A DNA stretch of 50,507 bases from Gemmatimonadaceae bacterium (GTDB lineage Bacteria; Gemmatimonadota; Gemmatimonadetes; Gemmatimonadales; Gemmatimonadaceae): contig DASUHB010000002.1 of the NCBI GenBank assembly GCA_036273715.1, positions 1 through 50,507 of the forward strand, read 5' to 3'. Shown in pieces: positions 16,937 through 50,507 of this stretch. The translations under genes were made by a program, and so were the position numbers. Below the pieces are notes generated by a model. That model made no database searches and had not been told where the DNA came from. It saw only the letters and a program-made list of their open reading frames with translations. Each line of letters opens with the position of its first letter. Within the stretch, counting starts at the first letter, position 1.

Positions 16937-16942
16937 CGTGTG

Positions 16943-16948: not shown

Positions 16949-16955
16949 ATAGGCC

Positions 16956-19358: not shown

Positions 19359-19369
19359 CCGGAGTCACA

Positions 19370-28272: not shown

Positions 28273-28314
28273 CGCTGGCGCCCGGGCGCCGCGGGCCGCG
28301 CGTGCGCCGCGCTG

Positions 28315-28779
28315 ATGCGCGTGCTCGTCGCGGCCGTGGGCCGGCCGAGGGATCGCGACCTGGCGGCCGTGATCGAGGAATACGAGCGACGCGCGGCGCG
28401 GTACTGGCCGCTCGACATCCGCGCGGTCCGCGAGGAGCCGGCGCGCGGGCGCCCGTCCACCGAGGTGCAAGAGCGCGAAGGGGAGCGCTTGCTGGCCGCG
28501 GCCGGCTCGGCGACGGTGCTCGTGGCCTGTGACGCCGAGGGAACTCTGATGCGGTCCGAGGAGTTCGCCGGTTGGCTCCGCGACCACCGCGACGGCGGAC
28601 GCGATGTGGCGTTCATGATCGGCGGTGCGTACGGGTTGTCGGAGAGCGTGCGGCGCCGGTCGGCGATGCGGTTGGCGTTCGCGCGATGGACGCTGCCGCA
28701 CGAGCTCGCGCGGTTGGTGCTCGCGGAACAACTCTATCGCGCCGGTACGATCGGGCGCGGCGAACCGTACCACAAGTGA
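28315..28779 (+). CDS. rlmH: RlmH, 23S rRNA pseudouridine-1915 methyltransferase
   Basis: A small SPOUT methyltransferase modifying helix 69 of 23S rRNA. 154 residues, typical. The AdoMet-binding trefoil knot shows VAFMIGGAYGLSESV, and the protein ends with GEPYHK, the conserved family terminus. The 42-base spacer before it is very GC-rich and contains the 14-base palindrome GGCGCCCGGGCGCC (28277-28290). Confidence 0.95.
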   Translation: MRVLVAAVGRPRDRDLAAVIEEYERRAARYWPLDIRAVREEPARGRPSTEVQEREGERLLAAAGSATVLVACDAEGTLMRSEEFAGWLRDHRDGGRDVAFMIGGAYGLSESVRRRSAMRLAFARWTLPHELARLVLAEQLYRAGTIGRGEPYHK

Positions 28780-28867
28780 TGCCATCTTCTCGAGTCGAAA
28801 CCGCCGTGCATCAGCATCGCATCCGATGTCGGGCGCGGCAGTGGGTTCGCACGTTCCGGGGACGCGC

Positions 28868-32024: not shown

Positions 32025-32051
32025 GGCGCGCCCGAGCACAACGGTTCGGCG

Positions 32052-32057
32052 TATATT
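32052..32057 (+). promoter_or_regulatory. -10-like TATATT before uvrC
   Basis: TATATT in a short GC-rich spacer after murJ. Transcription would begin near 32064, which argues for the uvrC start at 32106 rather than at ATG 32064. Confidence 0.5.
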
Positions 32058-32105
32058 TCATCGATGCGCCCGTCGCGACGGTTGCGACGCGGCCCAGCCT
32101 TGCCG

Positions 32106-35095: not shown

Positions 35096-35160
35096 GGTCT
35101 TAGCTCTGGGCAAGTGACGCTGCTTCCGAGGCCGCTGTTTTCGCCGGTTGGCCTTGGACG

Positions 35161-35199
35161 TTGAAATTGATCCGCTAGCGATCGTATCGAGCGCTAGCG
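35161..35199 (+). promoter_or_regulatory. Promoter with twin CGCTAGCG operator-like sites, before larC
   Basis: TTGAAA (35161-35166) and TATCGA (35185-35190), 18 bases apart, make a credible sigma-70 promoter. The palindrome CGCTAGCG occurs twice, at 35173-35180 inside the -35/-10 gap and at 35192-35199 just behind the -10, with centres 19 bases apart (about two helical turns). That placement suits a repressor. An alternative -10, CATAAC at 35217-35222, would give a nearly leaderless larC transcript. Confidence 0.5.
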
Positions 35200-35232
35200 T
35201 CGCAACGCCACTCGTGCATAACTTTTACAGCT

Positions 35233-36423
35233 ATGCGCGTTGCCCTCCTGGATCCTTTCAGCGGCATAGCCGGCGACATGACGCTCGGCGCCTTGATCGA
35301 CGTCGGACTCGACGCCGAGTGGCTCCGCGCGCTGCCGTCGCGGCTTGGGCTCGAGGGCGTCACCGTCCGGATCGAACGCGTCAAGCGCTCATCGGTGGCC
35401 TGCACCAAGGTGGACTTCGACATTCCACCGCAGCCGCATTCGCGCGGCATTCACGAGATTCGCGAGCTCGTCTCGCGTGCGGACGTCCCGGAGGCCGTGC
35501 GCGAGCGCGCCGATGCGGCGTTCGTCGCCATTGCGACGGCAGAGGGTGAAATTCACGGCATCGCGCCGGAACGCGTGCATCTGCACGAAGTCGGTGCCGT
35601 CGACGCGATCCTCGATGTCGTCGGATCCGTGTGGGGCTTCGAGCAGATCGGCGTCGAGCGTGTGTTCTGTGGACCGGTAAGTATCGGTGACGGGACAGTC
35701 GCGACAGCACATGGGATACTTCCAGTGCCGGCTCCTGCGACGCTGAAACTGCTCGAGGGGATCGAGATTCGTCCCGGACCTCAGGGATCAGGTGAGCTGG
35801 TGACGCCAACGGGCGCCGCACTCATTCGCGTGTTGTCGAGCGGTCCGGCCCCGGCTTCGCTCACGCCGGTTCGCAGCGGATTCGGCGCGGGTACCAAGGA
35901 TCCCAAGGGACGCCCCAACGCGCTCCGCATCGTGATCGCCGAGATGGCGGCCGCCCAAGGGGTTGCGGTGGAACACCTCGTGCAGCTTGCCACCGACATC
36001 GACGACATGGACGGCGAGCAGCTCGCCGCCGTGGCGGAGCGCCTCCGCAACGAAGGCGCGCTCGATGTGGTACTGCTTGCAACGTTGATGAAAAAAGGCA
36101 GGCCGGGCACGCGCATCGAGGTGCTGGCCGGCCGTGAAATGGCGGACCGCCTCGAGGAGCTGCTCTTTTCGCACAGCTCTTCTATCGGCGTGCGCCGCAC
36201 CCTCGTCGAGCGACATGCCTTGCCGCGCGCCGTTCACACGGTGCATGCGCTCGATCACGACATTCGGGTAAAGGTGGTGACGCTGCCGACGGGGGAGCGC
36301 CGCGCCAAACCGGAGCACGAGGATGTCGCGCGCGTGGCAACGGAAACGGGGCGATCGCTGCGAGAAGTGGCGGCGTCTGCCCGAGCCGCCGGAGAACGGC
36401 TGATCCACGAACGGGTACCATGA
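35233..36423 (+). CDS. larC: LarC, nickel insertion protein for nickel-pincer cofactor
   Basis: Completes the nickel-pincer nucleotide used by lactate racemase-type enzymes. 396 residues in one uninterrupted frame, unlike the split or frameshifted larC of some Lactobacilli. It begins MRVALLDPFSGIAGDMTLGAL, the DUF111 hallmark, and contains HLHEVGAVDAILDVVG and the ferredoxin-like C-terminal half. larB and larE, and any racemase (larA), are outside the window. There is no clear Shine-Dalgarno in front of the ATG. Confidence 0.93.
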   Translation: MRVALLDPFSGIAGDMTLGALIDVGLDAEWLRALPSRLGLEGVTVRIERVKRSSVACTKVDFDIPPQPHSRGIHEIRELVSRADVPEAVRERADAAFVAIATAEGEIHGIAPERVHLHEVGAVDAILDVVGSVWGFEQIGVERVFCGPVSIGDGTVATAHGILPVPAPATLKLLEGIEIRPGPQGSGELVTPTGAALIRVLSSGPAPASLTPVRSGFGAGTKDPKGRPNALRIVIAEMAAAQGVAVEHLVQLATDIDDMDGEQLAAVAERLRNEGALDVVLLATLMKKGRPGTRIEVLAGREMADRLEELLFSHSSSIGVRRTLVERHALPRAVHTVHALDHDIRVKVVTLPTGERRAKPEHEDVARVATETGRSLREVAASARAAGERLIHERVP

Positions 36424-36470
36424 ATGGCGGGCAGTCGCGCTCGCTCAACGCTCTCAGTGAGGAACGGTAG

Positions 36471-37997
36471 ATGAACGCTTGGCGCAATGTGATCGGCTGC
36501 GTGCTTGTCTGGTCCGCCTTCGCGGTCCCGACTGCAGCGGCTCAGAAAAACGACAAGCAGGGCGATGCCGGCAAGTGCACTATTGACTTCGGCTCGAACG
36601 ACCAGGTCAAGAGCGCGTACAACCAGATGACCGTGCTGGGGTTGTCGTCGGGGAAACCGGACGACGCGCGCAAGAAGATCAAGAGCGCGATCTCGTCGCT
36701 CACATCGAAGTCCGATTTTGGCAAGGACCAGATGGCGCGTGACGCGGTCCTCGGGCAGGCTCTCGTGACGTGGTACGACACGCCGGGCTCGCCCGCGGTC
36801 GCGCCCGCGGCAGATCTCGGCTATCCGTCGTCGGCCGGGCAGGTGGACGTACTTGCTGCGGCGGACTCCGCGTTCACCGCGGTGGAAACGTCGCATCCCG
36901 ACTGCGTCGATCAGATGGACGGGTATCGGCAGCAGCCGTGGGCCCGCTTGATCAATCAGATCGGTCCGCTCATCAACGGCAACAAGGACGACTCGGCGCA
37001 GGTGATCCTGAATCACGCGATCACGATTTATCCGAAGTCGCCGTACGACTACTACTTCCAGGGACAAATCGCGCAGCGCAAGAAGGACTGGCAGACGGCG
37101 GCGACCGCCTACTCGAAAGCGGTCGAGCTGTCGACGCCCGACATCGTGGCCAAGGACACGAGCGTCAAGGCGGTGAAGGAGTTCAGTGAATTCAGCGCGG
37201 CGTATGCCCAACTTCAGGTTGGGCAGGCGGCGTCCGGCCCGCAGCAGCAAGAGGCAATGAAGAAAGCTGCCGATCTGTATCGGCAGTACCTCAAGGATTA
37301 TCCGAGCGGTGACAACGTGCAGCCCGCGCAGGCCGGCCTAACGGTGGCGCTCAAGGCGTCGGGCGACACGGCGTCGCTCGGAGAGATGTGGAAGGACATG
37401 GCCGCCAACCCGACCAAGTACACCGACGCACAATTGTTCGACGCCGGCACGCAGGCATTCACGGCGCAGAAGTACGCCACGGCGGTGCAGTTGATGGAGT
37501 TTGGCCAGAAGTCGAACCCGTATCTTCGCGCGGGGCTGTTCAACCTCGCGAACGCGTACTGGAAGAACAATCAGTTCGACAAGATGCAGCCCGTGGCCGA
37601 CACCCTGACGAAGATCGATCCGGACAACCCAGACAACTACCAGCTGCTCGCGATCGCGTATCAGGGCATGGAGAAGGGCGCCGACCCGAAGCAGAAGAAG
37701 GCACTCGCAGACTCGGTGAACAAGTATGTGACCGCAGGCGACCAGCTGCCGGTGCACGTGCAGTTCTCGCAGTTCACGCACGACGGCGACAAGTACACGC
37801 TCACCGGCCAGGTGCAGAACACGGGCACGAAGCCGGAGACGGCCGCGCTCAACGTCAAGTTCCTGGACAAGACGGGCCAGGTCGTGACGAGCCAGTCGAC
37901 CTCGGTGCAGCTCGGCGCCAACGAGACCAAGCAGTTTACCCTGAACGCGACCGGCGCGAACATCGCCGCGTACCGGTACGATCCGATCAAACCGTGA
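36471..37997 (+). CDS. Periplasmic TPR-repeat protein
   Basis: 508 residues. The signal peptide (about 1-24) ends TAAAQ. The middle is helical with TPR-like units (for example YYFQGQIAQRKKDWQTAATAYSKAVEL and the repeat near residue 340). The last ~90 residues form a beta-rich FxLYD-like domain (YTLTGQVQNTGTKPETAALNVKF). Ribosome site GAGGAA lies ~9 bases upstream. It probably acts as an exported scaffold or envelope protein, but I cannot name it. It ends at a strong hairpin. Confidence 0.75.
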   Translation: MNAWRNVIGCVLVWSAFAVPTAAAQKNDKQGDAGKCTIDFGSNDQVKSAYNQMTVLGLSSGKPDDARKKIKSAISSLTSKSDFGKDQMARDAVLGQALVTWYDTPGSPAVAPAADLGYPSSAGQVDVLAAADSAFTAVETSHPDCVDQMDGYRQQPWARLINQIGPLINGNKDDSAQVILNHAITIYPKSPYDYYFQGQIAQRKKDWQTAATAYSKAVELSTPDIVAKDTSVKAVKEFSEFSAAYAQLQVGQAASGPQQQEAMKKAADLYRQYLKDYPSGDNVQPAQAGLTVALKASGDTASLGEMWKDMAANPTKYTDAQLFDAGTQAFTAQKYATAVQLMEFGQKSNPYLRAGLFNLANAYWKNNQFDKMQPVADTLTKIDPDNPDNYQLLAIAYQGMEKGADPKQKKALADSVNKYVTAGDQLPVHVQFSQFTHDGDKYTLTGQVQNTGTKPETAALNVKFLDKTGQVVTSQSTSVQLGANETKQFTLNATGANIAAYRYDPIKP

Positions 37998-38003
37998 CCC
38001 CGC

Positions 38004-38039
38004 CACGCCGAGCGCGCGCTGCATGCGCCGCTCGGCGTG
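38004..38039 (+). terminator. Hairpin after the TPR gene
   Basis: A perfect 11-bp stem, CACGCCGAGCG with CGCTCGGCGTG, seven bases after the stop, with a 14-base loop. No T-tract follows directly. Confidence 0.7.
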
Positions 38040-38063
38040 AGTGGCGGAAGTGTCCGATTCGTC

Positions 38064-38092
38064 TTGCTTTCCGGGCATTGATCTCCTAGTTT
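38064..38092 (+). promoter_or_regulatory. Candidate promoter of the DUF512 gene
   Basis: TTGCTT (38064-38069) and TAGTTT (38087-38092) are 17 bases apart. It lies in a locally AT-richer stretch between the terminator hairpin and the leader hairpins. Confidence 0.45.
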
Positions 38093-38103
38093 ACTTGATG
38101 CTC

Positions 38104-38176
38104 CCGCACCGCCAGGTGCGGTGATGCGTGCCCAACGCACGCCCAAAGGGGGAGGCCGCAGAGGGCGGTCTCCCCC
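38104..38176 (+). promoter_or_regulatory. Three-hairpin leader of the DUF512 gene
   Basis: Three stem-loops follow one another: CCGCACC/GGTGCGG (38104-38121), GCGTGC/GCACGC (38126-38142), and a 12-bp stem GGGGGAGGCCGC/GCGGTCTCCCCC with one G-T pair (38148-38176). The last ends two bases before the ATG at 38179, and its 5' arm contains GGAGG, so it could hide or present the ribosome site. Part of the leader may be translated if the GTG at 38128 is used. Confidence 0.45.
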
Positions 38177-38178
38177 TC

Positions 38179-39498
38179 ATGCACACAGCCGGGTTCATGA
38201 TTCGCGTCAGTCGCGTCGCATCAGGCAGCATCGCCGACGAGATCGGCATCGTGCCGGCCACCGAACTACTCACGGTGAATGGTCGTGCGCTGGACGACTT
38301 CCTCGATTGGGAGTTCCTGTCGGCGGACGACGCGCTCGTCATCGAAGCGCGCCTGCCCGATGGGCAGGCGCTCGTCGCAGACGTGGAGCGCCCCGACGGC
38401 GAGCCGTTAGGCATCGAGCTGGAACCGCCGCGCGTTCGCCGCTGCGCGAACCGTTGCGAGTTCTGCTTCATCGAAGGGTTGCCGACGGGGCTCCGCAAAT
38501 CGCTCTATGTGCGCGACGACGACTACCGGCTCTCCTTCGCCTACGGCAATTTCGCCACGCTGTCCAATGTGAAGGAGAAGGACATTGCGCGCATCCTGGA
38601 GTACCGGTTGTCGCCGCTGTACGTGTCGGTGCACGCGACTCCCTGGGAAGCGCGCAAGGTGCTGCTCAACAACCCGAAGGTGCCGAACATCGTCGCGCAG
38701 TTGAGCCGATTGGCAGAGGGCGGCATTCAGTTTCACGGGCAGATGGTGATCGTGCCCGGGCTGAACGACGGCGACGTGCTCGAGCAGTCGCTCGAGGATT
38801 TGTGGTCGTTCGGCGACGCCGTGCTGTCGGTGGCGGTGGTGCCCGTCGGGCTCACGCAGTTCTCGCACCTGTACACCGGCAAGACCATGGATGCCGAGAC
38901 GAGCGGCGCGCTCGTCGCCCATGTGGAGCGGTGGGAAGGGCGCGCGCTCGCCGCGCGCGGCGAGCGGTGGGTGTACGGTTCGGACGAGCTCTACTTGCTG
39001 GCCGGGCGCGAGTTGCCCGCGGCGGCGCACTACGGCGATTTTCCGCAAATCGAGAACGGGGTGGGTGCGGTGGCGCATCTTCGCCAACGCATCGCCGACG
39101 CGATCGGCGAGCGGGCCTTGCCGCGTCTCGACGGCGCGCGCATCGGTGTGGTGACCGGTGTCGCCATGGGTCCGCGCATCATGCCCGATCTGCTCGACCG
39201 CCTAACGGAAGCCACGGGCGCCCGCTTCGAGCTGCTCGTCGCCGAGAATTCCCTGTTCGGACCAACCACCACGACGGCGGGGCTGCTCGTGGGCGCCGAC
39301 ATCCGGCGCGTTCTCGCCGGCCGGGCCGATCTCGACGTCGCGCTCATCCCCGCCGAGACGATCAACGACGACGGCCTCTTCCTGGATGACACACCGTTCG
39401 CCGCGCTGCGGGACGCGCTGCCGATACCCGTGCATCCGTCGTACGACTTCGTCGACGTCCTCCAGCAGAACGGCCTCGCGGCCGTGGCGGCGCGGTGA
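38179..39498 (+). CDS. DUF512 protein, PDZ plus radical-SAM-like cysteine motif
   Basis: 439 residues from ATG 38179; in-frame alternatives are GTG 38128 and ATG 38197. An N-terminal PDZ-like domain (GSIADEIGIVPATELLTVNG) comes first. Next is a CANRCEFCFIEGLP segment with a CxxxCxxC arrangement, like the iron-sulfur motif of radical SAM enzymes, followed by SLYVRDDDYRLSFAYGNFATL. DUF512 makes up the C-terminal half. The family is widespread and commonly sits next to der, as here (GTGA overlap), but its reaction is unknown. Confidence 0.85.
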   Translation: MHTAGFMIRVSRVASGSIADEIGIVPATELLTVNGRALDDFLDWEFLSADDALVIEARLPDGQALVADVERPDGEPLGIELEPPRVRRCANRCEFCFIEGLPTGLRKSLYVRDDDYRLSFAYGNFATLSNVKEKDIARILEYRLSPLYVSVHATPWEARKVLLNNPKVPNIVAQLSRLAEGGIQFHGQMVIVPGLNDGDVLEQSLEDLWSFGDAVLSVAVVPVGLTQFSHLYTGKTMDAETSGALVAHVERWEGRALAARGERWVYGSDELYLLAGRELPAAAHYGDFPQIENGVGAVAHLRQRIADAIGERALPRLDGARIGVVTGVAMGPRIMPDLLDRLTEATGARFELLVAENSLFGPTTTTAGLLVGADIRRVLAGRADLDVALIPAETINDDGLFLDDTPFAALRDALPIPVHPSYDFVDVLQQNGLAAVAAR

Positions 39499-40808
39499 CC
39501 ATTCCCGTCGTCGCCCTGGTCGGCCGGCCCAACGTCGGCAAGTCCGCGTTGTTCAACCGGCTCGTCGGCGGCGACGCGGCGATCGTGAGCGACGAAGCGG
39601 GCACGACGCGGGACCGGCACTTTGCGCGCGCCGAATGGAACGGCCGCGCGTTCTGGCTCGTCGACACCGGCGGCCTAACGGAGGATCCGTCGGTGCCGAT
39701 CGACGTCGAGATCCGCCGCCAGGTGCTGCAGGCGGTCGACGAGGCCGACCTGCTGCTGCTCGTCGTGGACGCGCAGGCCGGCGTGCACCCGCAGGACGCG
39801 CGCGTGGTGGAGCTGCTGCGCGGCACGGGCAAGCCGTGGCTGCTGGTCGCCAACAAGGTGGATGACCCAGCCTCGGCCGACTTCTACGAATTCTATCATC
39901 TCGGCGCCGGCGACCCGGCGCCGGTGTCGGCGCGCAACGGCAAAGGATCGGGCGATCTGCTCGACGCGATCGTGTCCCGGTTCCCCGAGCGGAGCCCGGA
40001 GGAGCCCGATGCGCTGCACGTCGCCGTCATCGGCCGGCCGAACGTGGGCAAATCGTCGCTCGTGAACCGGTTGTTAGGCGAAGACCGGCTCGTCGTGGCC
40101 GCCGAGGCGGGCACGACGCGCGATGCGATCGACACGCCCATGCAGTATCACGGCCGTACGCTGGTGTTCATCGACACCGCGGGGCTGCGCCGTCAATCGC
40201 GCATTGCGGATGGCGTCGAATTCTACTCGGCCTTGAGGACGCGCCGCGCCATCGAGCGGGCCGACATCTGCCTGCTCGTGATCGACGCGGCCGTGGACCA
40301 GGGCATCGAGAACCAGGATCTCAAGATCGCATCGCTGGCCTGGGAACGGGGCACCGGCCTCATCCTCGTCGCCAACAAATGGGATCTGGTCGAGAAGGAC
40401 GATAAGAGCGCCGCGCGGTTCATGAAGGCGTCGCAGGAGAAGGCGCCGTATCTGCGATTCGTGCCGTTCCTGTTCACGTCGGCGCTCACGGGACAGCGCG
40501 TGACGCGTGTGCTCGATCAACTGATGCAGGTGGACACGGAGCGGCGGAAGCGCATTTCCACGTCGCAGGTGAACGCGTGTCTCGAGGAGCTGGTCGCGCG
40601 ACTGCAGCCCCCGCAGGCGGCGGGACGCGAAGTGAAGCTGATGTACGCGACGCAGGTGCAGGTGGCGCCGCCGACGATCGCGGTGTTCGGCAACCATCCG
40701 GAGCTGGTGGAAGAGCATTACGTGCGCTACCTGCACAATGGCTTTCGCGACGCGTGGGGGTTCACGGGAAGCCCGCTCCGCGTCGTCATGCGGAGACGCG
40801 CCGCCTGA
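39495..40808 (+). CDS. der: Der (EngA), tandem GTPase of 50S assembly
   Basis: 437 residues from GTG 39495. There are two G domains, GRPNVGKSALFN (near residue 10) and GRPNVGKSSLVN (near 180), each with its DTGG or DTAG switch, NK(V/W)D specificity motif and SA motif. A C-terminal KH-like domain ends FTGSPLRVVMR. Promotes 50S subunit assembly and is essential in most bacteria. plsY starts immediately after its stop. Confidence 0.97.
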   Translation: MTIPVVALVGRPNVGKSALFNRLVGGDAAIVSDEAGTTRDRHFARAEWNGRAFWLVDTGGLTEDPSVPIDVEIRRQVLQAVDEADLLLLVVDAQAGVHPQDARVVELLRGTGKPWLLVANKVDDPASADFYEFYHLGAGDPAPVSARNGKGSGDLLDAIVSRFPERSPEEPDALHVAVIGRPNVGKSSLVNRLLGEDRLVVAAEAGTTRDAIDTPMQYHGRTLVFIDTAGLRRQSRIADGVEFYSALRTRRAIERADICLLVIDAAVDQGIENQDLKIASLAWERGTGLILVANKWDLVEKDDKSAARFMKASQEKAPYLRFVPFLFTSALTGQRVTRVLDQLMQVDTERRKRISTSQVNACLEELVARLQPPQAAGREVKLMYATQVQVAPPTIAVFGNHPELVEEHYVRYLHNGFRDAWGFTGSPLRVVMRRRAA

Positions 40809-41432
40809 ATGCGCGCCAGCCCGTTCCTCTGGCTCATCGCCGCGTATCTGATCGGCGGGATCCCGTGGGCATATGTAGCCGGACGTCTCGTGGGCGGCCT
40901 CGACCTCCGGCAGCACGGCTCAGGCAATCTCGGCGCGACCAACGTGTATCGTGTGTTAGGCGCTCCGGCGGCGGTGGTCGTGGTGCTGCTCGATGTGGCC
41001 AAGGGATTCGGCCCGGCGTTCCTCTTCCCGCAGTGGACCATCGCGGCGTCGTCGCCGTACTGGGCGCTGGCGTACGGGCTGGCGGCGATCGCGGGGCACG
41101 TGCGGAGTCCGTATCTGTTGTGGAAGGCCGGCGGCAAAGGCGTGGCGACCGGGTGCGGCGTGTTCCTCGCGGTCGCGCCGCTCGCGACGCTGATCGCGAT
41201 CGTCGTCTGGGCGGCGGTGCTGCGGGTGTGGCGATACGTCTCGGTGGCGTCGCTGGCCGCCGCGGCGGCGCTGGTGATTGCGTTAGGCGTGCTCGACGGC
41301 CCGCGTGCGCCGGTGTTTGCGTTGGGCGTGGTGGTCGCGGGATTCGTCGTGTGGACGCACCGCGCGAACCTCGGCCGTCTGCGCCGGGGCGAGGAGCACC
41401 GCGTGGGACGCCGGCCGGCGGCGGGCGACTGA
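40809..41432 (+). CDS. plsY: PlsY, glycerol-3-phosphate acyltransferase
   Basis: Integral membrane enzyme using acyl-phosphate for the first acylation of phospholipid synthesis. 207 residues, five or so hydrophobic helices. The three family motifs are seen: SGNLGATNVYRVLG near residue 38, GHVRSPYL, and GGKGVATGCG near residue 109. The start touches the der stop, and the stop shares a base with gpsA. Its partner PlsX is not in the window. Confidence 0.95.
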   Translation: MRASPFLWLIAAYLIGGIPWAYVAGRLVGGLDLRQHGSGNLGATNVYRVLGAPAAVVVVLLDVAKGFGPAFLFPQWTIAASSPYWALAYGLAAIAGHVRSPYLLWKAGGKGVATGCGVFLAVAPLATLIAIVVWAAVLRVWRYVSVASLAAAAALVIALGVLDGPRAPVFALGVVVAGFVVWTHRANLGRLRRGEEHRVGRRPAAGD

Positions 41433-42427
41433 TGCGCTGTGCCGTCGTCGGGGCGGGGGCGTGGGGCACCGCGCTGGCGGATCTGCTCGTGCGCAACGAG
41501 CACGAGGTTGCGCTGTGGGCGTTGGAGCCGGATGTGGCCGAGGCCGTGAACACCCGCCACGCCAATCCGCGGTTTCTGCCGGGCGCGTCCATCGCGCCGG
41601 CGGTCCGCGCGACCTGTTCGTTAGGCGAAGCGACGGCCGGCGCCGAGCTGATCGTCTATGTGACGCCGTCGCACGTGCTGCGCGCGGTGCTGCGCGGCAG
41701 CCGCGACGCGGTGCCGGGCAGCGCGACCCTCGTCGTGGCCAGCAAGGGCATCGAGCGCGGGACGCTCGTGGTGATGACCGACGTCGTCCGCGAGGAGCTG
41801 CCGGGGCGTCCGGTGGTCGCGTTGTCCGGCCCCAGTTTTGCCACCGAGGTCATCGCCCGGCAACCGACCGCGGTCGTGGCGGCATCGACGAACGAGGCCG
41901 CCGCGCAGCTCGCCCAACGCGCGCTCAGCAACGAGACGTTCCGCGTGTATTCGCACGATGACGTGATCGGCGTCGAAATCGGCGGCGCGCTCAAGAACGT
42001 CATCGCGGTGGCCACCGGGATCGCCGAAGGATTGGGATTGGGGTTCAACCCGCGCGCGGCGCTGATCACCCGCGGGCTCGCCGAGATCACTCGGTTAGGC
42101 GTGGCCATGGGCGCGTCGCCGCGCACGTTCGCCGGCCTCGCCGGACTGGGCGACCTCGTCCTCACGTGCACCGGCTCGCTGAGCCGCAACCGGGCCCTCG
42201 GCCTCGACATGGCCCGCGGCGCGTCGCTCGACGATGTCCTCGCCAGCCGCGAGACCGTCGCCGAAGGCGTCGTCACCACAGAGAGCGCGCACGCCCTCGC
42301 CGCGCGCGCCGCCATCGAGATGCCCATCGTGGCCGCGGTGTATCGCATTTTGTTCGAGCACCACCATCCCCGCGATGCGATTGCCGAACTGATGTCGCGC
42401 GAGCTCCGCGCGGAGGTCGACTCATGA
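41432..42427 (+). CDS. gpsA: GpsA, glycerol-3-phosphate dehydrogenase [NAD(P)+]
   Basis: Supplies glycerol-3-phosphate, the substrate of the PlsY encoded just upstream. 331 residues. The nucleotide fold is VVGAGAWGTALADLL (residues 5-19). The catalytic lysine lies in GVEIGGALKNVIAVATG near 190, and ALITRGLAEITRLG is typical. plsY-gpsA coupling is functionally sensible and common. Confidence 0.97.
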   Translation: MRCAVVGAGAWGTALADLLVRNEHEVALWALEPDVAEAVNTRHANPRFLPGASIAPAVRATCSLGEATAGAELIVYVTPSHVLRAVLRGSRDAVPGSATLVVASKGIERGTLVVMTDVVREELPGRPVVALSGPSFATEVIARQPTAVVAASTNEAAAQLAQRALSNETFRVYSHDDVIGVEIGGALKNVIAVATGIAEGLGLGFNPRAALITRGLAEITRLGVAMGASPRTFAGLAGLGDLVLTCTGSLSRNRALGLDMARGASLDDVLASRETVAEGVVTTESAHALAARAAIEMPIVAAVYRILFEHHHPRDAIAELMSRELRAEVDS

Positions 42428-42879
42428 GTCCACAGTCCCCACGCTCGGCGCACTCGAATGCCCAGGGCCATCACCGCGACCCGGTGCAGGAGTTTTTCTC
42501 CATCGGCGAGGTGTGCGAGCTGACCGGCCTCAAGCCGCACGTCCTGCGCTACTGGGAGAGCCAGTTCCGGTTCCTGAGCCCGGCAAAGAATCGCTCCGGC
42601 AACCGCGTCTACCAGCGCCGCGAGATCGAGTTGATCATGCTCGTCAAGCATCTGCTGTACACCGAGAAGTACACGATCGACGGCGCCCGGCAGAAGGTCG
42701 ACCAGCACCGCCGCAAGGGCGAGCTGCGGCCGGCGGCCCGCACCGCGCTCGACCTGCAGACCATCGAAACGATGGAGCAGGAGCTGCGCGAAGTCCTCGG
42801 CTTGTTAGGCGGAGACGGCGCGGAACCGGCTCCCTCGGCGGCCAAGCCCCCGTCGGGAGGCGGGGGCCGCGGCCGGTGA
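42424..42879 (+). CDS. MerR-family transcriptional regulator
   Basis: 151 residues. The helix-turn-helix and wing read FFSIGEVCELTGLKPHVLRYWE ... NRSGNRVYQRREIELI (residues ~24-75). A short helix-rich tail follows and no metal-binding cysteine cluster is seen, so it is not a classical metal sensor. It overlaps gpsA (ATGA) and the glycosyltransferase (GTGA). The target is unknown; autoregulation of this lipid and glycan operon is possible. Confidence 0.9.
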   Translation: MSPQSPRSAHSNAQGHHRDPVQEFFSIGEVCELTGLKPHVLRYWESQFRFLSPAKNRSGNRVYQRREIELIMLVKHLLYTEKYTIDGARQKVDQHRRKGELRPAARTALDLQTIETMEQELREVLGLLGGDGAEPAPSAAKPPSGGGGRGR

Positions 42880-43550
42880 TCGCGCCGCTCGCATGCGTGA
42901 TTCCCGCGCTCGATGCGGCGCCGACGCTGCCGCTCGTGGTGACCGCGCTCCGCGACGCGCTCGCCGGCGCGTGCATCATCGTGGTGGACGACGGGTCGCG
43001 CGATGACACCCATGCGGTCGCACGGGCCTGTGCCGACACCGTGATGCGGTTCGAACGCAACCGTGGCAAGGGCGCGGCCCTTCGCGCCGGGACGAGCGCG
43101 GCGCTCGCCCACGGTGCGCGGGCGGTGGTGACCATGGATGCCGACGGCCAGCACGACCCGTGGGCGGCGCCGCGACTGGTCGCCGCGCTCGACGACGCGG
43201 ACATGGCGGTCGGCACACGCGCGCGCGGGGCCGGCGCGATGCCGATGGGCCGGCGCATCACGAACGCGCTCGCGAGCCGAGCCGTGGGCGCGATCGTGCA
43301 CTCCCGGGTGCCGGACGCGCAGTGCGGGTTTCGCGCGATGCGCCGCGCCGTGCTCGAGCGCGTCCGTGCGAGCGGCGACCGATACGAGTTCGAGACGGAA
43401 TTTCTCATCGGCGCGGCGCGCGCCGGGTTCACGATTGCCGCCATCCCGGTGCCCACGATGTACGGCGCGCCGAGCCACTTTCGCGCGGTGCGGGACACGG
43501 CGCTGGTGGTCCGCGCCATCTGGCGACAGCGCGCCGGAGCGTTCGCCTGA
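42876..43550 (+). CDS. Family 2 glycosyltransferase (DPM1/DPG-synthase-like)
   Basis: 224 residues from GTG 42876. A GT-A fold with IIVVDDGSRDDT near residue 35, RNRGKGAALRAG near 65 and the metal-binding VTMDADGQHDP near 86; later DAQCGFRAMRR and YEFETEFLI, as in polyprenol-phosphate sugar transferases. It lacks transmembrane helices. Sugar and acceptor cannot be read from sequence. Confidence 0.88.
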   Translation: MIAPLACVIPALDAAPTLPLVVTALRDALAGACIIVVDDGSRDDTHAVARACADTVMRFERNRGKGAALRAGTSAALAHGARAVVTMDADGQHDPWAAPRLVAALDDADMAVGTRARGAGAMPMGRRITNALASRAVGAIVHSRVPDAQCGFRAMRRAVLERVRASGDRYEFETEFLIGAARAGFTIAAIPVPTMYGAPSHFRAVRDTALVVRAIWRQRAGAFA

Positions 43551-44314
43551 TGCGGCTGTTGTGCACCAACGACGACGGCATCCTCGCGTTCGGTCTGGAG
43601 TGTCTGGCCAAGGCCGCCGCTCCGTTAGGCGAGGTGACGATCGTCGCGCCCGATCGCGAGCAGAGCGCCACCAGCCACTCGCTGACGCTGCACCATCCGA
43701 TCCGGCCGGTGATGCGGGGCGAGCACCGATGGCAGGTGGATGGCACGCCGACCGACTGCGTCATGCTCGCCGTCGAGGCGCTCATGCCCGAGCGGCCGGA
43801 CTTCGTGCTGAGCGGCATCAACCACGGGCACAACATGGGCGAGGACGTGCTCTACTCGGGCACGGTGGCCGCGGCGATGGAAGGGGTCACGTTAGGCATT
43901 CCCGCCATGGCGCTGTCGTTCGCCGGCGGAGAGCTCAAGGCCGATCCGGCGCTGCTCGCCGACCAGGTCCAGGTCGTGTCCAAGCTGCTCGGCCACCTGG
44001 TGCACCTCGAGCACATCCCGCGCGACACGCTGCTCAACATCAACCTGCCGCCGCTGCCGGCGGCGCAGATCAAGGGCATCCGCCTAACGCGGTTGGGCAG
44101 GCGGGTGTACTCCGACTCGCTGGTGCGCATGCACGACCCGCGCGGCCGCGAGATCTTCTGGATCGGGGGCGGCTCGGCGGAGTGGAGCGGGGCCGACGAC
44201 TCGGACTTCCGCGCCGTCAACGAGGGATACGTGTCCGTCACGCCGTTGACGCTCGACCTCACGCACACCCGCATGCTGGAGGACGCGACGTCGTGGTGGA
44301 TGGAACTGCCATGA
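43550..44314 (+). CDS. surE: SurE, 5'/3'-nucleotidase
   Basis: Metal-dependent nucleotidase associated with stationary-phase survival. 254 residues. LLCTNDDGILAFGL carries the metal-binding aspartates at the N-terminus. SATSHSLTLHHPIRP, GTPTDCVMLAV and LSGINHGHNMGEDVLYSGTV are the family blocks. surE next to pcm is a widespread pair, here with ATGA overlap. Confidence 0.96.
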   Translation: MRLLCTNDDGILAFGLECLAKAAAPLGEVTIVAPDREQSATSHSLTLHHPIRPVMRGEHRWQVDGTPTDCVMLAVEALMPERPDFVLSGINHGHNMGEDVLYSGTVAAAMEGVTLGIPAMALSFAGGELKADPALLADQVQVVSKLLGHLVHLEHIPRDTLLNINLPPLPAAQIKGIRLTRLGRRVYSDSLVRMHDPRGREIFWIGGGSAEWSGADDSDFRAVNEGYVSVTPLTLDLTHTRMLEDATSWWMELP

Positions 44315-44952
44315 GCCAGTACGCCGGCGCGCGCCGCCGGCTGGTCGAAGCCCTGCACGACGGCGGTGTGGGCGATCTCAACGTGCTGCGCGCGTTCGAT
44401 CAGACGCCGCGGCATCTGTTCGTGCCCACCGGCATGCGCCACCGCGCGTACGAAGACAGCGCGCTGCCCATCGGCAACGGCCAAACCATCTCGCAGCCGT
44501 CCACCCATGCGCGCTATCTCGAGCTGTTGCGCCTCACCGGGTCCGAGCGCGTGCTCGAGATCGGGACTGGCTCCGGCTATCAGACCGTGCTGCTGTCACA
44601 CCTGTCGAGCCAGGTCTTCTCGATCGAGCGCGTGGGCGGTCTGCTCGAGCGGGCACGCGATGCGATCCGCGAATCGGGCGCCCGGAACGTCTCCCTGCTG
44701 AGCGGCGACGGAACGCTGGGGTGGCGAGAATATGCTCCATTCGACGCGATTCTGGTGACGGCGGGCGCGCCGGCGGAGCCGCAGCCGCTCGTCGAGCAGC
44801 TCGCCGACGGCGGCCGCATGTTGATTCCGCTGGGCGATCGCGAGGAACAGCGGCTCACGCTCGTGACGCGTCGCGGCGAGGCCGTGGAGCGCCGTGACAT
44901 GGGGCCAGCGCGATTCGTCCCGCTCGTGGGGATGCACGGCTGGCCGTCGTAG
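44311..44952 (+). CDS. pcm: Pcm, protein-L-isoaspartate O-methyltransferase
   Basis: Repairs isoaspartate damage with AdoMet. 213 residues. ALPIGNGQTISQPSTHA near residue 50 is the substrate loop; VLEIGTGSGYQTVLL near 80 is AdoMet motif I; FDAILVTAGAP and GGRMLIPLG follow. It is the last gene of the der-to-pcm run. Confidence 0.96.
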   Translation: MSQYAGARRRLVEALHDGGVGDLNVLRAFDQTPRHLFVPTGMRHRAYEDSALPIGNGQTISQPSTHARYLELLRLTGSERVLEIGTGSGYQTVLLSHLSSQVFSIERVGGLLERARDAIRESGARNVSLLSGDGTLGWREYAPFDAILVTAGAPAEPQPLVEQLADGGRMLIPLGDREEQRLTLVTRRGEAVERRDMGPARFVPLVGMHGWPS

Positions 44953-44973
44953 CCGGCCCAACGCCACGCGCGC

Positions 44974-44979
44974 TATATT
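44974..44979 (+). promoter_or_regulatory. -10-like TATATT before the 45002 gene
   Basis: TATATT followed by TTCCC, 22 bases before the ATG, with GGGAG at 44992-44996 as ribosome site. No T-rich -35 is visible. Confidence 0.5.
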
Positions 44980-45001
44980 TTCCCACCTTTCGGGAGCCTC
45001 G

Positions 45002-46297
45002 ATGCCCGATCAGTCGGACGAGACGCAAAAGCAGCAACGCCGCAGCACGGCTTTACCGCCGTTTTTCGCGCCGCGCACCGCCCGCCCAACGACGCCGTCG
45101 CAGTCGGCCACGGCGACGCCGCCGCGCCGGACGCTGTTCACCCCTCCGGGCGTCCCGAAACAGCGCCCGGCCTTCACGACACCGTTGGCCACGCCGCGGG
45201 TGACACCGTTCGCGGCGCCCGTCGTGTCGTCGCCGCCACCGACTGACCTCGATGCGTCGTACGAGCCGCCGCCGCTCCCCATGTTTGACGCTCCAGTCGG
45301 CGCCGACGACGCGATGGCGACCGGGCTGGAGGCGGCCACGGGCGCGGCGGTTAAGGAGGAGCCCGCCGTTGCGGATCCAGCCCGGTTGCCTAACGCAGAA
45401 ACGCCGTCCGAGGCAGGGCGGGGGACCGTGGCGCACGATGCCCGCGATGGCTTCGTGATCGAGCGGTACGAAACCCCGCCGATCTCGCTCAGCGCGACGG
45501 GTGAGCAGGGGGTCGTGAGCGACGATCCGTCCATGGCCTTCCAGGTCTACGACGATGCGTCGCGGTTGCTCGAGCGCGGCGCGCGCCCGGTGCCGTCCGA
45601 GGGCGGGGGCCTCGAGATCGAACGCACGGAAGTCACGTTCGAGGCAGCGTCGCCCGACGTCGCGCCGCTGGAGGTGGAGAGCTTCTGGGCGCCCCAGGCG
45701 ATGCCGCAGCCGGAGGCGCCGCGGGACGCGTCCACGCCTCCGTTAGGCAACGAGGCCGTCGTCCAGCCGCAGGCGGCGGAACCGGCGCCGGAGCCGCCGG
45801 TGCCGGTCGCCCCGCAGGCGCCGGACGATGCCGAGGAAGCGCTCGCCGAAGCCTTCGCCGAACCGGCGCCTAACGAGAGCGTGCCGCGGTGGGCCACGCC
45901 GCGGATGGTGCCGGCCGTCGAGCACGGCGCGCCGTCGCCGCGCGAGCCGTGGGACCTGCCCGCCGCTCCGCCGCCGCCGGACGAGCTGGCTGCGGCGCTC
46001 GCGTGGCCCGATTCCGGGCTGCGCGCCCGGACGCCCGCCGCCGGAATCGCCGCGCACGGCCAAACCGGCGACACATCGCATGAGCTCGCGGCGAGCGCCG
46101 AAGGATGGCCGCTGTCGGTGGCCGGCCGTCCCGGCATGCCGGACACGATCGCCGAGGCGCTGGAGCGCATCGCGCAGCGCGTGCGCGCCGGAGAAGTGCC
46201 GTTGCCGGCCGACGTCGCGCTCGCCAAGAGCGACGAGAGCGCGCTCGCGCTCACGCTGGCCGCGCTGCTGCGCGCCGGCGCGTCCACGCGTGCGTGA
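45002..46297 (+). CDS. Proline/alanine-rich, mostly disordered protein of unknown function
   Basis: 431 residues, no family recognised. The first ~90 residues are Thr/Pro/Ala-rich and basic. The middle (~100-370) is acidic and Pro-rich (for example PAPEPPVPVAPQAPDD), predicted disordered by composition. The only compact-looking part is the last ~60 residues, starting near PDTIAEALERIAQRV and ending LAAALL-like helices. No signal peptide or membrane helix. Codon pattern and GTTAGGC words match the neighbours, so it is native and expressed. The acylphosphatase starts two bases after. Confidence 0.65.
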   Translation: MPDQSDETQKQQRRSTALPPFFAPRTARPTTPSQSATATPPRRTLFTPPGVPKQRPAFTTPLATPRVTPFAAPVVSSPPPTDLDASYEPPPLPMFDAPVGADDAMATGLEAATGAAVKEEPAVADPARLPNAETPSEAGRGTVAHDARDGFVIERYETPPISLSATGEQGVVSDDPSMAFQVYDDASRLLERGARPVPSEGGGLEIERTEVTFEAASPDVAPLEVESFWAPQAMPQPEAPRDASTPPLGNEAVVQPQAAEPAPEPPVPVAPQAPDDAEEALAEAFAEPAPNESVPRWATPRMVPAVEHGAPSPREPWDLPAAPPPPDELAAALAWPDSGLRARTPAAGIAAHGQTGDTSHELAASAEGWPLSVAGRPGMPDTIAEALERIAQRVRAGEVPLPADVALAKSDESALALTLAALLRAGASTRA

Positions 46298-46298
46298 C

Positions 46299-46574
46299 AT
46301 GCTGCGCCTGCACTTGCGTGTCCGCGGCGCGGTGCAGGGCGTCGGCTTCCGATGGTTCGCCCGCGAGACGGCGCAACGGCTCGGCGTATCCGGGTGGGTG
46401 CGAAATTGCGACGATGGCAGCGTGGAGATCGGCGTCGGCGGCGACGATGAGCGGGTGGAGAAGTTCGCCGCCGCGATGGCGCGCGGCCCGCGGAACGCGT
46501 CAGTCAGCGATGTTTCCCGGAACCCGTTAGGCGACGACGAGCCGCTCGCTCGCCCCTTCGAGATCAGACGGTGA
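46299..46574 (+). CDS. Acylphosphatase
   Basis: 91 residues. Hydrolyses acyl phosphates. The phosphate loop VRGAVQGVGFRWFA (residues ~8-21) includes the catalytic arginine, and VSGWVRNCDDGSVEI holds the catalytic asparagine. Length and fold pattern are standard. Starts right after the previous stop, probably co-transcribed with apt. Confidence 0.95.
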   Translation: MLRLHLRVRGAVQGVGFRWFARETAQRLGVSGWVRNCDDGSVEIGVGGDDERVEKFAAAMARGPRNASVSDVSRNPLGDDEPLARPFEIRR

Positions 46575-46581
46575 GGCACCC

Positions 46582-47130
46582 ATGAACCGAAGCGAGCTCA
46601 CGTCGAGCGCCCTCGCGGGAGAGTTGCGGCGCGCGATCCGGGACGTCCCGGACTTTCCGAAGTCGGGCATTGTCTTCAAGGACATCACGCCCATTCTGCT
46701 GGACGCGACGCTGTTTCACCATGCGACCGAGGCCATGGCGGCACCGTTCGCCGCGGACGCGATCACGCACGTGATCGGCATCGAGAGTCGCGGGTTCATC
46801 CTCGGCGCCCCGGTCGCGCAGCATCTGGGCGCAGCGTTCGTTCCGGTCCGCAAGCCGGGCAAGCTGCCCTCTACGGTGGAGCGGGTGCAGTACGCGCTCG
46901 AGTACGGCACCGACGCGCTCGAGATGCACCGCGATGCCTTGGGCCCGAGCGATCGAGCGCTCATCGTGGACGACGTGCTGGCCACCGGTGGGACGGCGCG
47001 CGCGACGTGCGAGCTCGTGGAACGCACCGGTGCGCGTGTCATCGGGTGCAGCCTCCTGATGGTGCTCACGTTCTTGTCCGGCGTGCAGGCGCTGTCGTCC
47101 AGGCGCGTCGAGTCGCTGCTCGAGTACTGA
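46582..47130 (+). CDS. apt: Adenine phosphoribosyltransferase
   Basis: Salvages adenine to AMP with PRPP. 182 residues. The N-terminal IRDVPDFPKSGIVFKDITPIL and the PRPP loop ALIVDDVLATGGTA near residue 133 are diagnostic. GIESRGFILGAPVA binds the pyrophosphate side. GTGAGG ahead of ATG 46582 is the ribosome site. Confidence 0.97.
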   Translation: MNRSELTSSALAGELRRAIRDVPDFPKSGIVFKDITPILLDATLFHHATEAMAAPFAADAITHVIGIESRGFILGAPVAQHLGAAFVPVRKPGKLPSTVERVQYALEYGTDALEMHRDALGPSDRALIVDDVLATGGTARATCELVERTGARVIGCSLLMVLTFLSGVQALSSRRVESLLEY

Positions 47131-47287: not shown

Positions 47288-47361
47288 GCCCCTGTAGCTC
47301 AGGTGGATAGAGCAGCGGTTTCCTAAACCGTTGGCCGGGTGTTCGAGTCACCCCAGGGGCA
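47288..47361 (+). tRNA. tRNA-Arg(CCU)
   Basis: 74 bases. The acceptor stem GCCCCTG pairs with CAGGGGC (47354-47360), discriminator A. The D arm contains GCTCAGGTGGATAGAGC. The anticodon stem GCGGT/ACCGT holds the loop TTCCTAA with anticodon CCT at 47322-47324, and the T-loop is TTCGAGT. CCA is not encoded. Reads AGG codons, which are rare here. Confidence 0.95.
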
Positions 47362-47440
47362 CTGTCGGGGCATCGGGTGGCGTACCAACGAGTCTCTTTG
47401 CAGGCATTCATTCTTCACGTTCACGCAGACGAGCCAGGCT

Positions 47441-48106
47441 ATGACCAAGACAGGTGCAGCTGCACGCCCCGATCTGGAAGACCGCGCTGAGGACCTCAAG
47501 GAGTGGGCGCTGATCCACAGCAAGGGCCTATCGATCGCCGCTCTCGTCGTGGTGGTCCTGGTTGGCATCGGGTTCTTGTACGTGAAGTCGCAGCAGGCGC
47601 AAGCGCGCAATGCGTCGTCGGCGCTGCTGCAGGCGGAGCAGGCGTTAGGTGCTGGCAACTCAGCACTTGCGCAGAGCGACCTCGAGCGACTTGTGAACAG
47701 ATACGGGTCCACGGACGCGGGTCGGCAGGCTCAGCTGCTCCTCGCGCAGACCTACTTCGATGCCGGCAAATACGCCGAGGGCGTGGAGGGACTGCAGAAG
47801 CTGATCGCGGAAAAGCCGAAGTTCATCGAGGCGTCGGCGTACAACCTGTTGGGTGCCGGGTACGAGCAGCAGAACAAGTTCGACGACGCGGCGAACGCGT
47901 ACCAGAAGGCCGCAGCGATGGCGCAGGGCAAGGCGGATCGCGATACGTACCTCGCGAACGCGGCCCGGGCGCTCACAGCGGGCGGCAAGACGGCCGACGC
48001 GGTGAAGATCTGGTCGAAGCTCGCAACTGATCCAACGAGTCCGGCGGCCGCCGAGGCGCGCGTGCGGCTTGGAGAGCTCCAGGCGAAGGCGGTGAAGGCT
48101 GGGTGA
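47441..48106 (+). CDS. YfgM-like membrane-anchored TPR protein
   Basis: 221 residues. A single transmembrane helix at ~29-48 (LSIAALVVVVLVGIGFLYV) follows an N-terminal cytoplasmic stretch, and the remainder is periplasmic TPR repeats (AQLLLAQTYFDAGKYAEGVEGL and AYNLLGAGYEQQNKFDDAANAYQKA). The architecture equals that of E. coli YfgM, a SecYEG-associated chaperone factor, but similarity in detail is not established. It is the last plus-strand gene of the window. Confidence 0.8.
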   Translation: MTKTGAAARPDLEDRAEDLKEWALIHSKGLSIAALVVVVLVGIGFLYVKSQQAQARNASSALLQAEQALGAGNSALAQSDLERLVNRYGSTDAGRQAQLLLAQTYFDAGKYAEGVEGLQKLIAEKPKFIEASAYNLLGAGYEQQNKFDDAANAYQKAAAMAQGKADRDTYLANAARALTAGGKTADAVKIWSKLATDPTSPAAAEARVRLGELQAKAVKAG

Positions 48107-48144
48107 GTAGCCGATAATCGGAGTGACCTTGGCGCAAGACTCGG

Positions 48145-48169
48145 GGGCGGCTGCGATCTGCGGCCGCCC
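48145..48169 (+). terminator. Hairpin after the YfgM-like gene
   Basis: GGGCGGC pairs with GCCGCCC, and the stem continues inward three more pairs around the loop GATCT. TCGGTTCGTTG follows, so the U-tract is weak. Confidence 0.75.
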
Positions 48170-48221
48170 TCGGTTCGTTGAAGCAGCCGGTTTTCCAGAG
48201 CGCTCGGATCGCCAGCAAAGT

Positions 48222-48249
48222 ACTTCGTATAAGATATGTTATGTAAACT
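48222..48249 (+). other. dif: dif site for XerC/XerD chromosome-dimer resolution
   Basis: 28 bases in the 11-6-11 layout of dif. The left (XerC) arm is ACTTCGTATAA, the centre GATATG, and the right (XerD) arm TTATGTAAACT. The right arm equals, base for base, the one I recall for Bacillus subtilis dif; the left arm differs from it at two positions and the centre at two. The match is judged from memory of published dif sequences. Supporting context: AT-rich island, non-coding position, and gene orientation switching from plus to minus across it. Confidence 0.85.
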
Positions 48250-48422: not shown

Positions 48423-48452
48423 TACTGTCGCGACAAGCATTTCGCGACAGTA
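48423..48452 (-). terminator. 11-bp inverted repeat just after the dapF stop
   Basis: TACTGTCGCGA (48423-48433) and TCGCGACAGTA (48442-48452) are perfect inverted copies around the 8-base spacer CAAGCATT, five bases beyond the end of dapF on the minus strand. Position fits a terminator for the minus-strand unit, but there is no T-tract, so a protein-binding palindrome is equally possible. Confidence 0.5.
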
Positions 48453-48457
48453 TCGCG

Positions 48458-49282
48458 TCACCCAATCGGCAGCAGCCCCCGAAAGACGACGCGGCCCTCA
48501 CCGCGCAGCGTCGGCAGCCACGCGCTCCCCTCGCGCCGAAGCGTGATCGTCAGCGACCGGCCGGACCGCGTCCTGAGCGTCGTCTCGAGACCAGCCTCGC
48601 CCCAGGCGGCCAACAAAATCGCCGTCGACACCGACCCCGTGCCGCACGCGAGCGTCTCCGCTTCCACTCCCCGTTCGTACGTGCGGATGTCGAATCCGCC
48701 ATCCGGCCGACGCGCGACGAAGTTTGCGTTCGCGCCGCCGCCAGGCCGAACGTACTCGTGCAGCCGGATCGCGCGACCGCGGCGCACGATCTCCAGCGTC
48801 TCGAGCTCGTCGCGCAAAATCACGACGTGCGGGTTGCCAACGATTGCGTAGCCAATTCGCTGCTCGCCCGGCTCCAGCGCGATCTCCGCAGCGGGCCGGA
48901 CGTCCGTCACCGGCCAAAGGTCGACCTCCGGCTGGCCGTCGCACATGCGTGCCGACGCAATCCCGGAGTCGGTTTCGAAACGCATCCCTGCCGCGCTGCC
49001 CGCACCCAACTGCGACGCCAAGCTCGTAACGCACAGCGCGGCGTTGCCGCACATCTCGGCGACCGATCCGTCGCTGTTGAAGTAGCGCATGCGGAACTGT
49101 GCGCCGTTCGTGCTGGTAGGCTCGATGAACACCATGCCGTCCGCGCCCACACCGGTCCCTCGCGCACAGACGTCACGTATCACCCGAGGTGTGGCCAATT
49201 GACCTGCCGGCTCGGTGCGGGCGTCGAAGACGACGAAGTCGTTTCCCGAGCCGGACATCTTGAAAAACTCCCGGTCACTCAT
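48458..49282 (-). CDS. dapF: Diaminopimelate epimerase
   Basis: Converts LL- to meso-diaminopimelate for lysine and peptidoglycan. 274 residues from the ATG at 49282; the frame opens 16 codons earlier, but this start overlaps the upstream stop as ATGA. The two catalytic cysteines lie in EMCGNAALC and LACGTGSVS. FFKMSGSGNDFVVFD begins the protein, as in the family. Confidence 0.96.
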   Translation of the reverse strand: MSDREFFKMSGSGNDFVVFDARTEPAGQLATPRVIRDVCARGTGVGADGMVFIEPTSTNGAQFRMRYFNSDGSVAEMCGNAALCVTSLASQLGAGSAAGMRFETDSGIASARMCDGQPEVDLWPVTDVRPAAEIALEPGEQRIGYAIVGNPHVVILRDELETLEIVRRGRAIRLHEYVRPGGGANANFVARRPDGGFDIRTYERGVEAETLACGTGSVSTAILLAAWGEAGLETTLRTRSGRSLTITLRREGSAWLPTLRGEGRVVFRGLLPIG

Positions 49283-50004
49283 TTGATGCGTCCCGTGATC
49301 GCCAGCCATCTGAGACGCCAGACCATCCACACAGCCTCACGCACGATCTTGCGCGACATCTTGCTTTCGCCCTCGGTACGATCCACGAAGACGATCGGAA
49401 TCTCGACGATGCGAAATCCCTTCTTCCATACGCGGAAGCTCATCTCGATCTGGAACGCGTAGCCGTTCGATCGCACCGCGTTCAGGTCGATTGCCTCGAG
49501 AACGGACCTGCGAAAGCACTTGAACCCGCCCGTGGAATCCTCGAGAGGAAGCCCAGTTACAGTTCTCGCGTATATGTTGGCGAAGAAGCTCAGGATGAGG
49601 CGCGTCATCGGCCAATTCACCACGGTCACCTTGCCGCGGCGGTACCTCGAGCCCAACACGAGGTCGGCGTTCACGATCGCGTCGAGAAACTGGGGGAGGT
49701 GGGCTGGGTCGTGCGAGAAGTCTGCGTCCATCTCGAAGAGATAGTCGTAGCCGTTCTCGAGTCCCCATCGGAAGCCCGCGATATAGGCTGTGCCGAGTCC
49801 CATCTTGCCTGCACGATGCAACACGTGCACACGCGGATTCTCGGCCGCCATTGACTCGACGATCTGTCCGGTACAGTCCGGCGACGCGTCGTCGACCACC
49901 AGGATCTCGAGTCGCGGATCCTTTTCGAGTACCGCGGGAATGAGTCGCTGGATGTTCTCCCGCTCGTTGTACGTCGGGATGATGACGATGGCGCGCTCAG
50001 GCAT
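49279..50004 (-). CDS. Polyprenol-phosphate mannosyltransferase-like GT2
   Basis: 241 residues. IVIIPTYNERENIQRL starts a GT-A fold; ILVVDDASPDCTGQIV and FEMDADFSHDPAHLP provide nucleotide and metal binding. The C-terminal DSTGGFKCFRRSVLEAI and ...EIPIVFVDRTEGESKM blocks are those of DPM1-type dolichol/polyprenol monophosphomannose synthases. No C-terminal membrane helices. It follows the membrane protein below by a short overlap, and may make the lipid-linked sugar that such a protein uses. Confidence 0.9.
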   Translation of the reverse strand: MPERAIVIIPTYNERENIQRLIPAVLEKDPRLEILVVDDASPDCTGQIVESMAAENPRVHVLHRAGKMGLGTAYIAGFRWGLENGYDYLFEMDADFSHDPAHLPQFLDAIVNADLVLGSRYRRGKVTVVNWPMTRLILSFFANIYARTVTGLPLEDSTGGFKCFRRSVLEAIDLNAVRSNGYAFQIEMSFRVWKKGFRIVEIPIVFVDRTEGESKMSRKIVREAVWMVWRLRWLAITGRIK

Positions 50005-50507
50005 GCTGCTTTTTGTCGAGAGCGATCCCGGCGGCCAGCATCGCCAGCGCGATGAGGATGGCCACGATGGTGATCACTTTTCCGCGTTCGTAGGCGGCGC
50101 TCGTGAACGTGAGATCGATGTGCCGCGCGCCCTCAGGCAGCGCTACGCCGATGAGCACGTAGTCGGCGCGTCCGACGACGGCCGGCTTCCCGTCGGCTGT
50201 GGCAACCCAGCCCGGATAGTAGTTCTCCGACACCATAAGCGCGGAACCACGCGGCGCAGGCTGTCTGAGATCGACGTCGATGTGTCCTGGATCGTAGCGC
50301 GTGACCGTCGCCTCCACCGCACTCGGCTCGGGTAGCGAGGTGATCCTGGCGCCCTGCACTGCGGCAGACGTGTCGAAGATCGCGCCGCGTCTGATGTCGA
50401 ATCGCGGATCGAGCACGGCGGACAGCGTCTGATCGTCGGACGCTTTGACGATGACAGGAGCGACCCACGCCGGCGGATCATCGGTCGGCACGGTGTAGAG
50501 GTACGTC
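49997..50507 (-). CDS. C-terminal part of a large membrane protein (YfhO-like), cut by window edge
   Basis: The frame is open to the window end, so only the last ~169 residues are seen. They form a beta-rich periplasmic domain (ALMVSENYYPGWVATADGKPAVVGRADYVLIGVALPEGARHI split over several strands) and one final transmembrane helix (VITIVAILIALAMLAAGIAL) with a short basic tail. The ENYYPGW segment and the closing helix are typical of YfhO-family proteins and related lipid-linked glycosyltransferases. A GTG at 50491 is internal, not the start. Confidence 0.75.
   Translation of the reverse strand, partial: TYLYTVPTDDPPAWVAPVIVKASDDQTLSAVLDPRFDIRRGAIFDTSAAVQGARITSLPEPSAVEATVTRYDPGHIDVDLRQPAPRGSALMVSENYYPGWVATADGKPAVVGRADYVLIGVALPEGARHIDLTFTSAAYERGKVITIVAILIALAMLAAGIALDKKQHA

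Follow-up and report, generated by a model that had tools for sequence, protein, structure and literature searches.

A 28-bp sequence that is very probably the chromosomal dif site at the replication terminus of a Gemmatimonadota bacterium, and a candidate KOPS motif

The 28-mer ACTTCGTATAAGATATGTTATGTAAACT, on the plus strand at 48222-48249 of the window, by which we mean the whole stretch of 50,507 nucleotides analysed here, has the 11-6-11 layout of a dif site and is almost certainly the chromosomal dif of this Gemmatimonadota bacterium, on which XerCD and FtsK would act at the replication terminus. This reading is directly supported by the site and its uniqueness, by Xer and FtsK genes in the assembly, by a switch of GC skew and gene orientation, by a conserved locus and, in relatives, by the polarity of a motif. 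As such, the dif described here is an ordinary example of a well-known element, and what is of specialist interest lies in its surroundings, which are mostly published. The new increments are the placing of dif no farther than about 130 bp from the switch in most relatives, the fixed gene junction in which it lies and a candidate for the FtsK-orienting motif (KOPS).

The site and its recombinases

The site is composed of two arms and a centre:

48222..48232, plus strand: XerC-side arm of dif, ACTTCGTATAA (from the sequence and from relatives at the same gene junction)
48233..48238, plus strand: central 6-bp spacer of dif, GATATG (from the sequence; varies among relatives)
48239..48249, plus strand: XerD-side arm of dif, TTATGTAAACT (from the sequence; the assembly's only exact copy)

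Sought as ACTTCGTATAA-N6-TTATGTAAACT with at most three mismatches, the arm pattern has a single match in the window, at 48222-48249, and no match in any of 100 dinucleotide-shuffled windows; the XerCD dif site claimed by the first-pass annotation thus lies exactly there. The genome-wide search proposed along with that annotation likewise finds the 28-mer in single copy at up to three mismatches in the whole assembly (4.34 Mb in 81 contigs, a draft that is 98.7% complete), in which the XerD-side arm TTATGTAAACT is present once. Neither a second dif-like copy nor phage or mobile genes at the site were found by the copy search of the assembly, by Pfam or among the gene neighbours. The dif of Bacillus subtilis closely resembles ACTTCGTATAAGATATGTTATGTAAACT, and the arm sequence is near the Bacillus type.

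XerD is encoded on contig C15 (above the XerD NCBIfam equivalog cut-off), a XerC-like protein on contig C33, for which the XerC model is the best match at 325.7 bits (cut-off 335.2), and contig C31 carries the gene for an FtsK that has a gamma domain. The three genes that had been named for a follow-up are hence all in the assembly, xerC with a score just under the cut-off. The same assembly also encodes an integron integrase of 355 aa (contig C62; L005, 1066-2133), which scores well above its NCBIfam cut-off.

Genes and hairpins around the site

The surroundings of dif in the window comprise the following features:

1..4826, plus strand: rRNA operon (16S cut at its 5' end, 23S, 5S), 43 kb from dif, transcribed in the direction of replication and in the same place in complete relatives
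4899..47130, plus strand: conserved housekeeping block from era to a phosphoribosyltransferase gene, on the leading strand and reading toward dif
47288..47362, plus strand: tRNA-Arg (CCT), 0.9 kb before dif
47441..48106, plus strand: gene for a TPR/YfiO-like protein (Pfam TPR_21), the last gene pointing at dif and its conserved left neighbour
48140..48173, no strand assigned: strong hairpin, rich in G+C, that follows the TPR gene, a possible terminator
48423..48452, no strand assigned: hairpin at the dapF 3' end with a perfect stem of 11 bp, TACTGTCGCGA, a possible terminator without a T tract
48458..49330, minus strand: dapF, diaminopimelate epimerase (PF01678; TIGR00652 above cut-off), the first gene right of dif, pointing at it, and its conserved right neighbour
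49279..50004, minus strand: family 2 glycosyltransferase (GT2) gene (PF00535), conserved
49997..50491, minus strand: C-terminal part of a YfhO-family membrane protein gene (PF09586 positions 757-835), cut by the contig end

All Pfam-recognised genes left of dif lie on the plus strand (Era, RF2, LysS, McsAB, ClpC, BamA, Lpx genes, MurJ, UvrC, Der, PlsY/GpsA, SurE, PCMT and the TPR protein), and dapF, the GT2 gene and the YfhO fragment to its right are all on the minus strand. The TPR gene, which ends at 48106, and dapF, which ends at 48458, stand tail to tail with dif between them; the start of the former was chosen as the ATG at 47441 within an ORF open from 47339, which avoids an overlap with the tRNA. 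Nine long minus-strand ORFs left of dif have no Pfam match and overlap plus-strand genes or rRNA, and one conserved minus-strand ORF of the reference relative G022, at about -25 kb, was rejected as a gene, being judged from its position to be antisense to lpxD. The first-pass annotation had assigned all protein genes before the site to the plus strand and all genes after it to the minus strand. Its first half stands for every Pfam-recognised gene, while its second half amounts to three genes here, since the window, a complete contig (C2), ends 2258 bp beyond dif; the strand flip was therefore checked in relatives, which supply the rest.

The rRNA operon and the conserved housekeeping block at this terminus had been overlooked in that annotation. 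Two 16S genes in the assembly, at 1-1380 of the window and at 316-1849 of contig C19 (L036), are mutually only 89% identical; one of the contigs may be mis-binned from another member of the Gemmatimonadaceae, or the genome may be unusual.

A canonical terminator was looked for beside dif in the window and not found. Hairpins with 9 bp or more are commoner beside dif (17/69 on the left and 8/69 on the right) than in random background stretches (9/445). Terminators framing dif as a conserved feature were rejected, as hairpins occur on both sides in only 3/69.

Conservation of the locus among relatives

A loose pattern (18-base core, at most two mismatches) has matches in 228 of the 300 phylum genomes searched, each at least 90% complete, compared with 1/300 for the reversed control. 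Among the named loci that share this core, some carry the label Gemmatimonadetes or Gemmatimonadaceae, and further ones belong to other phyla. A set of 211 loci that share a dif-like core, other phyla and viral contigs included, contains 89 with the conserved neighbours; 85 of these 89 have dapF as the immediate right neighbour and 71 have a TPR gene on the left, and the orientation of dif relative to its neighbours is constant in them. The CGTATAA of the XerC-side arm is kept in 89/89 pattern-selected relatives at the same gene junction, where the outer four bases differ, a conservation to be read with the core having belonged to the search pattern that selected them. Viral stretches with a dif-like core number 39, where a rough chance estimate gives one, and one of them, L193, has two copies 389 bp apart.

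In a neighbour comparison that covered the family of the window, the sister family f2 and the genome G148, dif is located between the TPR gene on the plus strand and dapF-GT2 on the minus strand across the family of the window and the sampled f2, in which dapF adjoins dif in 28 of 30 loci and is 1.1 kb off in one more. G148 keeps the order phosphoribosyltransferase-dif-GT2 without dapF. The XerD arm varies by family, with TTATGTAAACT in the genome of the window and TTATGTTAAGT in f2.

Nine relatives share a conserved gene order over about 40 kb on each side of dif, with the genes pointing at dif. Place and strand of the G022 genes within 40 kb are kept in eight relatives for 23-26 of 28 genes left of dif and 26-29 of 30 genes right of it, and 24 of the 28 left-side genes are at matching distance and strand in the window, counts that are approximate as they stem from a simple gene caller with G022 as reference. 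Neighbour conservation is 0.81-0.82 near dif compared with 0.39-0.40 in one distal 400-kb stretch, which with few tests (5 and 23) is indicative only. The ribosomal genes belong to this arrangement: the single 23S gene of G022 and of G070 lies 43 and 49 kb from dif respectively, and G048, G016 and G098 have one 23S copy 43-47 kb from dif and a second copy farther off.

Two dif-like matches occur in eight of the 228 matching genomes (G107, G120, G093, G164, G209, G236, G238 and G241), which could reflect contig overlap or elements integrated at dif. Where the matches of these genomes are listed, several are within about 120 bp of contig starts.

Such duplicates, some of them at contig ends, together with the 39 IMG/VR viral contig stretches (L159-L197) that carry the dif-like core CGTATAA-N6-TTATGTAAACT, would fit a 28-mer that is not the chromosomal dif but an attachment site of dif-like sequence left behind by a mobile element that integrates at dif, an IMEX or a phage. 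The conserved gene junction and the single copy in this assembly make this origin very improbable: other genera and the sister family keep the housekeeping flanks, TPR gene and dapF, on either side, and the cumulative GC-skew maximum sits at the site. Still less credible, to the point of being negligible, is a chance A+T-rich sequence whose strand switch would be merely that of two convergent operons. A+T-rich DNA is indeed frequent in convergent intergenic regions, but the shuffled windows gave no match, the site itself persists in relatives despite flanking spacers of 8 to over 1,000 bp, and the switch of orientation and skew extends over tens of kb. A chromosomal dif remains the reading that we adopt.

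GC skew and distance from dnaA

The cumulative GC skew of the window reaches its maximum at 48388, 139 bp past dif, on the side where the window extends for 2.3 kb only. With 40-60 kb taken per side, seven of nine relatives have their maximum no more than about 130 bp from dif (G022 +111, G048 +131, G116 -28, G149 +55 and G092 -129 bp; G098 and G070 within about 70 bp). Exceptions are G016, with the maximum 13 kb away from dif, and G035 (contig C29), in which gene orientation flips at dif and the GC skew is negative on both sides. Between dnaA and dif lie 1.93 of 4.64 Mb (41.6%) in G022, 2.12 of 4.72 Mb in G048, 2.55 of 5.31 Mb in G016, 2.27 of 5.18 Mb in G098 and 1.50 of 3.14 Mb in G070, that is 42-48% of the chromosome in these five complete chromosomes. 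These were used as references because G148 (CP070670.1, a MAG; L051, L201) is erratic, with no more than 446 kb separating dif and dnaA on a chromosome of 2.96 Mb and a sampled skew without clear arms, a deviation that may be due to misassembly or rearrangement.

Skew maximum, orientation switch and distance from dnaA together bear out the assignment of the window to the terminus region in the first-pass annotation, which had also suggested looking for the skew extremum. The two outcomes it had named as speaking against a chromosomal dif, multiple copies at integrated elements and a distant skew extremum, are absent for this genome.

The site can be dif and the forks can still normally meet elsewhere, as dif and the fork meeting point need not coincide. 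That dif is not exactly opposite dnaA, as the value for G022 illustrates, and that G148 and G035 deviate would agree with such a separation, but the seven relatives whose skew maximum is no more than about 130 bp from dif make it rather unlikely. We thus keep to a dif at or near the place where the forks would meet.

A candidate KOPS

The E. coli KOPS, GGGNAGGG, was chosen beforehand as the motif to be counted. In about 1.02 Mb around dif from the nine relatives and the window, it is distributed 137:17 between leading and lagging strand, an 8-fold preference toward dif, compared with 1.5:1 for purine-rich octamers in general. Without the window the distribution is 135:16, the highest strand ratio of the 7,889 patterns of the form xxxNxxxx that were seen at least 80 times. 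Samples of 520 kb distal to dif in G022 and G048 give 60:8; the window alone gives 2:1, too few to be informative. This strand distribution makes GGGNAGGG a candidate KOPS of the Gemmatimonadota. A literature search found no paper on KOPS in Gemmatimonad bacteria among the papers listed, which is no proof of absence.

Discussion

By homology with E. coli and B. subtilis, XerC and XerD would bind the two 11-bp arms, and strand exchange across the 6-bp centre would resolve chromosome dimers. FtsK would pump DNA toward dif along the oriented GGGNAGGG motifs and activate XerCD at the division septum. Replication forks probably meet at or near dif, so that the leading-strand gene bias and the GC skew would both reverse there. 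The 11-6-11 site in single copy at the terminus, the genes for XerD and a XerC-like protein and the gamma domain of FtsK are shared with the XerCD/dif systems of E. coli and B. subtilis, from which no functional difference was found, while the arm sequence varies by family within the phylum. With the E. coli KOPS, the candidate motif shares the consensus and, in relatives, a KOPS-like polarity.

A dif has been predicted in the sole Gemmatimonadetes genome then available (Kono et al., 2011; PMC3025954). In Gemmatimonadota, the 600 kb around ter have been described as a conserved region of leading-strand genes that includes rRNA and core genes, and replication was concluded to end at the switch of gene orientation (Tomasch et al., 2024; PMC11237797). 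In that work ter was inferred from skew and gene orientation, and the text is without XerCD, FtsK or KOPS. The window shares with the published region the phylum, the leading-strand genes around ter, the rRNA and core genes near it and the switch at the sign change of the GC skew; leading-strand genes, rRNA and core genes around a skew switch, the features of a terminus of high strand bias, are all found here. Added here is where the dif sequence lies, together with the fixed gene junction around it.

For a phylum that has been little studied, this pins the terminus to a point of 28 bp and supplies a concrete KOPS candidate. Essential and rRNA genes beside the terminus are opposite to the usual trend. 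It is conceivable, if doubtful, that dif and KOPS polarity help to hold the terminus of Gemmatimonadota, through selection against moving dif or flipping nearby DNA, and so contribute to a frozen, rRNA-bearing terminus. In combination with the published strand-biased terminus, it becomes testable whether constraint by FtsK and Xer or replication-transcription conflict is the keeper of the terminus-adjacent essential and rRNA genes.
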